Part shown: positions 31,273-32,999 of the stretch, piece by piece
Layout of the letters: each line of letters begins with the position of its first letter
Position numbering within the stretch: the first letter of the stretch is position 1
From: an uncultured Granulosicoccaceae bacterium
GTDB lineage: Bacteria; Pseudomonadota; Gammaproteobacteria; Granulosicoccales; Granulosicoccaceae
DNA: 34,616 nucleotides
Direction of reading: 5' to 3'
NCBI GenBank assembly: GCA_938038175.1
Contig: CALHRQ010000025.1
Span: 1 to 34,616 of the forward strand
Translations under genes and position numbers: made by a program
The notes under the pieces: model-generated
What the model was told of the DNA's origin: nothing
What the model saw: the letters and a program-made list of their open reading frames with translations, nothing else
The model's database searches: none

Positions 31273-32418
31273 ATGGAAGCAATCAGTGTCGACCCCTCGG
31301 GTGATTTTCTTACGCTAAAAATCGTAAACAAAATTCTCAGGTTTCATGCCATCTGGCTGCGCGATAATGCCCGTGATTCCCAAACCCGTTCAACTGGCAA
31401 TGGTCAGCGCTTGATAGCGCTCCGAGATATCCCCGCTGATACCACTATCGCGCACGCTGAATTACAAGGCGGATGGCTGGCGGTTGAGTTTGCCCCGGAA
31501 CATAAAAAAGTGACTTTCGACCTGAGTTGGCTTGAAGCCAATGCTTACGATAATACGCTGCCGGTGAAGCGTGGCTGGCTGCCTCCAGATACTCAAATTT
31601 GGTCCTCAGAGCTAGAGCAACACGTTCCCACAGGTGACTTCCAGGCTTTGGCAAAAGGAGGCACAGCCTTAGTAGAGTGGCTGAGTCAAATTAACCGATA
31701 TGGCTTTGCCAAGGTCGTCAACGGCCCTGTGGAAGAAGGTGCACTGTTTCGGGTGGTCGATCTGTTTGGTTATGTTCGGGAGACAAACTACGGGCGGTTA
31801 TTTGAAGTGCGAACTGAAGTCAATCCAACCAATTTGGCTTATACAGGTGTTGGCCTTCAAGCCCATACGGATAATCCCTACAGGGATCCTGTGCCAACCG
31901 TGCAAGTGCTCTATTGCCTTGAAAGTACTGCGGCTGGTGGCGAGAATATGGTGGTTGATGGATTCGCTGCAGTAAAACGATTACAAGATGAGAACGAAAC
32001 CTATTTTGATTTGCTTGCCAATCATTGCGCACGTTTTGAATACGCTGGTGAAGCCGGTGTGCATTTGACTTCGCGTCGCCCAATGATTGAGCTTGCCCCG
32101 GATGGCGAGCTGATTGCGGTTCGTTTTAACAACCGTTCAATGGCGGCAGTCACCGAAATTCCGTTCGACAAGATGGCGCTTTACTATGAAGCGTACAGGC
32201 GCCTGGGGGAAATCATTGATGATGAGGCCATGGAGGTCTCTTTTCGGCTTAACCCGGGTGAGGCTTTTATAGTAGACAACACCCGCGTATTGCATGCGCG
32301 TAAAGGCTATTCAGGTGAAGGTAATCGCTGGCTTCAAGGGTGCTATGCAGACAAAGACGGTGTTCGTTCTACTTATAAGGCCATGCAAGGTGACGTTGCG
32401 TTGGAGGCTGGGAGATGA
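31273..32418 (+). CDS. tmpA: TmpA-like Fe(II)/2-oxoglutarate oxygenase (2-(trimethylammonio)ethylphosphonate hydroxylase)
   Basis: The 381-residue protein has the gamma-butyrobetaine hydroxylase (GBBH) layout. The N-terminal GBBH-like domain (10-100; [16 protein letters not shown]) lacks the zinc-binding Cys cluster of human BBOX1 (RDNCPCSDC). The TauD-type barrel has His198 and Asp200 ([13 protein letters not shown]), His341 (VLHARKGY) and a 2OG-binding Arg352 (GNRWLQGCY). GBBH enzymes make carnitine. However, TmpA, first misannotated as GBBH, hydroxylates C1 of 2-(trimethylammonio)ethylphosphonate and is encoded beside an HD-type oxygenase, TmpB, exactly as here. I therefore prefer TmpA over GBBH. 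ATG 31273 has AAGAG upstream; the track start at 31174 adds 33 unconvincing residues. It overlaps the next gene by 4 nt. Confidence 0.8.
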
Positions 32419-32999
32419 GCGTGCAATTGGACACACTCAGTGCAGATACTATTGTTGAATTTATCGGTTCGATTTTTGATCGGCGTGGTGGAGAAGAATA
32501 TCTGGGCGAAGCGGTCAATATGGGGCAGCATATGCTTCAAGGTGCCTGGATAGCTGAACAAAACAAACAATCAGAAGAAATCATCGTGGGTGCGCTATTG
32601 CATGACATCGGTCACTTCACCAGTGAGTTTGGCACCTTCACCATGGGCGATACTGAAGATCGGCATCATGAAGATGCAGGTGCAAAAGTGCTGGAGCGCT
32701 TCTTTCCAAGGGTGATTACCGATTGTGTTCGTTATCATGTGGCTGCAAAAAGGTATTTGTGTGCTGCCCGTCCTGAGTATTTTTCGCGCTTGTCGGAAGC
32801 CTCTGTTCATTCGCTAAATTTACAAGGCGGGCCCATGAATGCAGATGAAGTTAGCGCTTTTGAAGCAAACCCGAACTTTAAAAAAATTGTTGCTGTGCGT
32901 TACCTTGATGATGCTGGAAAAGATCCTGAAATGCACACACCCGATTACTGGCATTTTGCACCGATGGTGCAGCGGATGGTGGATCGGCATTGTTGTTAG
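32415..32999 (+). CDS. tmpB: TmpB-like HD-domain mixed-valent di-iron oxygenase (PhnZ family)
   Basis: The 194-residue HD protein has all PhnZ-type metal ligands: His39, His63-Asp64 (LLHDIGHF), His85 (RHHEDAG), His108 (RYHVAAKRY) and Asp165 (RYLDDAGKD). It also has Tyr29-x-x-Glu32, matching the Tyr24/Glu27 lid of PhnZ at a constant offset of 4-5 residues. PhnZ and TmpB use an Fe(II)/Fe(III) pair and O2 to split the C-P bond of a 1-hydroxyphosphonate; TmpB yields glycine betaine and phosphate. The start ATG overlaps the tmpA stop (ATGA), with GGAGG 8 nt upstream, so the two are coupled. The pair would release phosphate plus a nitrogen-bearing osmolyte. There is no phosphonate ABC transporter or regulator in the window. 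Confidence 0.83.

Follow-up and report, generated by a model that had tools for sequence, protein, structure and literature searches.

The window, by which we mean the whole 34,616-nucleotide stretch of DNA analysed, derives from an uncultured Granulosicoccaceae bacterium and carries two adjacent genes on its + strand, tmpA (31273..32418) and tmpB (32415..32999). The first is predicted to encode a 381 amino acid Fe(II)/2-oxoglutarate-dependent 2-(trimethylammonio)ethylphosphonate dioxygenase from an ATG start, and the second a 194 amino acid HD-domain mixed-valent diiron (R)-1-hydroxy-2-(trimethylammonio)ethylphosphonate oxygenase. tmpB lies directly 3' of tmpA and direct reading of the + strand agreed with an earlier account of two reading frames overlapping by four nucleotides, the shared ATGA (32415..32418) forming both the stop of tmpA and the start of tmpB. 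Of 80 alphaproteobacterial loci, 71 end tmpA with the same ATGA, and the overlap is likely to couple translation of the two genes. A longer tmpA open reading frame could begin in frame at a GTG (31174); residue 1 of the ATG form is, for many Rhodobacterales homologues, the position at which the alignment starts.

The pair is flanked by host genes on the - strand: glnA, encoding a type I glutamine synthetase (33140..34549; NF007006, 855 bits versus 845; TIGR00653), and, on the other side, a gene for a DUF4124-domain protein (30424..31107; PF13511, 22.5 bits versus 22). tmpA and the DUF4124 gene diverge from an intergenic region of 165 bp (31108..31272) which must contain the tmpAB promoter. tmpB and glnA converge, and between them direct reading of the - strand showed a terminator-like hairpin (33051..33087), AGCCTCGC-TTATTA-GCGGGGCT followed by T8. 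Further along the - strand are ntrB, encoding NR(II) (24133..25200; NF008293, 345 bits versus 240), and ntrC, encoding NR(I) (22724..24136; TIGR01818, 682.7 bits versus 558.6). The preliminary description had the pair embedded in a glnA-ntrBC locus; it is indeed adjacent to glnA, but ntrBC is about 6 kb away with five genes intervening between tmpAB and ntrB (encoding the DUF4124 protein, a SASA-type esterase, a nitronate-monooxygenase-like protein, TauE and EamA).

The two proteins are TmpA and TmpB, as had been proposed from the sequence; curated models, solved structures, active-site residues and phylogeny all support this assignment. TmpA scored 581.2 bits against the curated equivalog model NF049936 (cut-off 400) and 397.7 bits against the gamma-butyrobetaine hydroxylase (GBBH) model TIGR02409, under its cut-off of 414.75. 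TmpB scored 344.4 bits against NF049941 (cut-off 300), with the PhnZ-type models TIGR03276 (194.9 bits, cut-off 214.6) and NF052439 (143.7 bits, cut-off 300) both under theirs. Among solved structures the best match of TmpA was PDB 6npb, a TmpA (E = 1.6e-150), with GBBH far weaker, and that of TmpB was PDB 6npa, a TmpB (E = 1e-99), with PhnZ far weaker. The metal ligands said to be complete in both proteins are all present: H198-x-D200 and H341 (HxD...H) in TmpA; and H39, H63-D64, H85, H108 and the Asp of YLDDAG (H...HD...H...H...D) in TmpB, which also keeps Y29 and E32 of the YxxE loop (six-ligand motif and loop as defined in PMC8177086). The residues of TmpA that contact the phosphonate, N187, N287 and R288 (PMC9296572), are all conserved in the window protein with identical numbering. 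In the phylogenetic comparison that had been suggested as a check, window TmpA grouped with Leisingera TmpA and apart from GBBH (support 99). The concern that automated annotation would obscure the pair proved half right, as Pfam alone returned nothing more specific than TauD for TmpA and HD for TmpB, but the present NCBI models name both proteins correctly; in older annotation, for instance on plasmid records, such genes do go under the names TauD/TfdA dioxygenase or gamma-butyrobetaine dioxygenase.

The biochemistry of these enzymes is already known and the window pair adds a further example. TmpA converts 2-(trimethylammonio)ethylphosphonate (M3AEP, also TMAEP) to the (R)-1-hydroxy compound, which TmpB cleaves to phosphate and glycine betaine (PMC10574752, PMC8177086), and this is the only route of M3AEP degradation described (PMC10590968). 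By extension, we infer that the window TmpA would hydroxylate C1 of M3AEP using Fe(II), 2-oxoglutarate and O2, and that TmpB would use its Fe(II)/Fe(III) pair for oxidative cleavage of the C-P bond in the product.

The origin of tmpAB was examined by searching 95 relatives for tmpA and by sampling, as possible donors, the 80 best matches to window TmpA in a species-representative collection. Besides the genome of the window, 19 of the 95 relatives, all within its family, harbour a tmpA above the TmpA-model cut-off. These family copies are only 52–64% identical to window TmpA, by comparison with 90–92% (glnA) and 74–80% (ntrC) identity of core genes to those of congeners. Nearly all of the 80 best matches belong to Rhodobacterales or Hyphomicrobiales, with identities of up to 75% for TmpA and up to 86% for TmpB, and the nearest TmpB sequences are all from the Roseobacter group, again at up to 86%. 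In the TmpA tree the window protein fell inside a set of 50 alphaproteobacterial sequences (SH-aLRT 95) that excluded both GBBH and the family's own TmpA; in a tree of concatenated TmpA and TmpB it lay within 14 alphaproteobacterial sequences (support 99/97); and forcing the window pair to group with the family copies cost 85.5 log units (p-AU 1.15e-6). Acquisition of tmpAB by horizontal transfer, as opposed to descent of the family's native version, is thus well supported by these sequence comparisons, with the pair probably coming from Roseobacter-type bacteria. Related tmpA genes were also found on alphaproteobacterial plasmids. Because the 80 sequences were picked by their likeness to window TmpA, the exact donor and the direction of transfer are less sure; a sample of best matches favours near relatives, and gammaproteobacterial intermediates may exist.

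Base composition bears on the age of this event. The G+C content and GC3 are 50.3 and 47.1 for tmpA and 46.7 and 41.5 for tmpB, close to the 48% of the host and unlike values typical of the donor group (median GC 60, GC3 69). Such host-like composition suggests that the transfer was not recent or that the donor was A+T-rich, and it also makes a chimeric contig unlikely.

The site occupied by tmpAB varies among congeners, which share the gene order glnA, DUF4124, ntrB, ntrC and in which the DUF4124 orthologue adjoins glnA or ntrB. In congener G010, glnA and the DUF4124 gene are about 0.2–0.3 kb apart with nothing between them, its own tmpAB being located elsewhere; in G014 the interval contains genes for a Deg-type protease, a LysR regulator, NhaA, a fasciclin protein and a Dps-like protein, and in G012 for a kinase and a second glutamine synthetase (names read from sequence in both). 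The most plausible view is that tmpAB represents one of several insertions that this permissive site has received. More broadly, the extra genes in the whole glnA-DUF4124-ntrBC stretch (24133-34549 in the window; L132-L138 in congeners) differ from one congener to the next, as might be expected of a region where insertions are frequent. Glutamine synthetase-like genes do occur near tmpAB in loci L037, L041 and L039; at 26–29% identity to GlnA these represent a different gene.

Two other features of this region were observed. Within the window, a secreted-looking protein of 546 amino acids (28516-30156, - strand) combines a SASA-type esterase domain with a long N-terminal part of low complexity; its homologues (43–53%) are found in congeners near a GBBH-like gene (L159, L161). 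Separately, a divergent GBBH/TmpA-like dioxygenase gene recurs in large-genome congeners, scoring about 250 bits to TmpA, under both the TmpA and GBBH cut-offs, and lies close to DUF4124-ntrBC in G011 (L128, 10709-11908) and G024 (L129, 8081-9130). This gene was considered as an ancestral form of the locus and rejected, as it scores 256 bits to TmpA, falls in the GBBH-like clade and, in G023, lies far from ntrBC.

It is our firm expectation that the window carries a functional tmpAB operon that salvages exogenous M3AEP, and that this bare cassette reached its place between glnA and the DUF4124 gene by transfer from or through the Rhodobacterales/Roseobacter group. The two genes would have entered an ancestor of this gammaproteobacterium and inserted at an insertion-prone locus; their role would be the salvage of phosphorus (and betaine), and a transporter whose genes lie elsewhere would import M3AEP. 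The window would then provide a clear-cut case of a transferred pathway for C-P bond cleavage, with tmpAB moving as a minimal two-gene unit that leaves behind its usual LysR gene.

A divergent LysR gene is a recurrent neighbour of tmpAB: of the 75 alphaproteobacterial loci whose sequence extends far enough upstream of tmpA, 50 have it there; it is related to GcvA and to choline-sulfate regulators and has no counterpart in the window. Consensus scans of the region upstream of tmpA (31108-31272) gave no recognisable sigma-70 match, no sigma-54 match at two or fewer mismatches (the window-wide total being at chance level) and no Pho box. The hairpin between tmpB and glnA is missing from the consensus-scan list, and a similar hairpin, GCCCCG...CGGGGC, occurs at the same place in G010.

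These observations bear on the possibility that tmpAB is an NtrC-regulated module supplying betaine nitrogen and is for this reason found beside glnA-ntrBC. Glycine betaine can serve as a nitrogen source in other bacteria, and tmpAB is physically adjacent to glnA; however, the pair converges on glnA across a terminator-like hairpin, has no sigma-54 match upstream, is absent from beside this glnA in all 19 related and 80 alphaproteobacterial loci, and occupies an interval that in congeners is filled by unrelated genes. A TGCACC-GAT-GGTGCA palindrome (32957-32971) resembles a pair of NtrC half-sites, but it has the wrong spacing and lies inside the tmpB coding sequence, where it encodes a conserved MVQR. 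We regard NtrC control as quite unlikely, and the nitrogen role originally suggested by the proximity to glnA was not borne out; given the varied content of the interval, the convergent orientation, the terminator-like hairpin and the lack of sigma-54 or Pho matches, placement of tmpAB beside nitrogen-regulation genes looks incidental. Just as doubtful is a variant in which the transferred pair has come under new control, by nitrogen or otherwise, through the glnA/DUF4124 site, so that M3AEP would be used as a combined source of phosphorus and betaine nitrogen regardless of phosphate supply.

Salvage of exogenous M3AEP calls for uptake. The preliminary description reported no phosphonate transporter, which is true of the neighbourhood of tmpAB, as it is of most alphaproteobacterial tmpAB loci, where no transporter recurs; but the genome of the window (64% complete) does hold a PhnD-family binding-protein fragment, cut by the end of contig C308, and five OpuAC binding proteins. 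In two relatives, G045 (L153, 9214-11798) and G015 (L141), a ProX/ProV/ProW-type set adjoins tmpAB in differing arrangements, and the ProX of these loci has an 84% identical counterpart in the genome of the window (on G000:C111). A quaternary-amine transporter of this type is a reasonable candidate for M3AEP uptake, and its position beside tmpAB in these relatives makes it a testable one.

The lack of a dedicated transporter gene beside tmpAB could also be taken to mean that the substrate of the pair is an internal phosphonate, synthesised and recycled by the same cell, as had been raised earlier, and some congeners do have strong-scoring PEP-mutase-family proteins. PF13714 includes isocitrate-lyase-like relatives, however, so that these matches are no proof of phosphonate synthesis; the 64%-complete genome of the window gave no PEP-mutase-family match and no phosphonate-synthesis gene, and it does contain uptake candidates. 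Internal recycling is therefore disfavoured and we hold it to be very improbable. The C-P lyase protein PhnJ was likewise not found in this genome, again at 64% completeness.

Two other genes were noted in the wider comparison. In 11 alphaproteobacterial loci and in one relative (L092, 12398-13231; L141, 7991-8821; and ten further loci), tmpB is followed by a gene for an alkaline-phosphatase-superfamily protein of about 277 amino acids, whose product could free phosphonates from their esters or diesters. Elsewhere, a weakly TmpB-like HD protein (L199; G000:C177, 4979-5593) is encoded in a cluster that also contains PqqC- and PqqE-like genes and one for a solute-binding-like protein (names read from sequence).

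Least probable, to the point of being negligible, is a reading in which tmpA encodes a carnitine enzyme akin to GBBH and tmpB an HD enzyme that is either unrelated or PhnZ-type, with a different substrate such as AEP: the GBBH-model score of TmpA does come close to its cut-off, but these identities were rejected on the 581-bit equivalog score, the retention of R288 where human GBBH aligns Ala-Thr, the separate GBBH clade (99) in the TmpA tree, and the 344 bits of TmpB on its own model versus 144–195 on PhnZ-type models, all under cut-off.

The exogenous salvage pathway that we favour can be set beside several known systems. The closest with solved structures is the Leisingera caerulea pair (PDB 6npb/6npc/6npd for TmpA and 6npa for TmpB; Rajakovich et al., 2019). 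The window has the same pair in the same order with the same set of residues, at about 60% identity for TmpA and higher for TmpB, but in a gammaproteobacterial host and flanked by glnA and a DUF4124 gene; by comparison with alphaproteobacterial loci in general it also lacks the adjacent, divergent LysR gene. The native tmpAB of its own family (e.g. in G015, G045, G010 and G020) is the same two-gene pair, but forms a separate branch, at the 52–64% TmpA identity given above, and is found in other neighbourhoods, with a ProXVW-type transporter alongside in two genomes. PhnY/PhnZ and GmPhnY/GmPhnZ follow the same two-step logic of a 2-oxoglutarate oxygenase followed by an HD diiron oxygenase (PMC10574752), but act on AEP or methylphosphonate, and their models are under cut-off on the window proteins. 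Finally, GBBH (BBOX) shares its fold family and a trimethylammonium substrate with TmpA, but lacks an Arg matching R288 and stands in a clade of its own.
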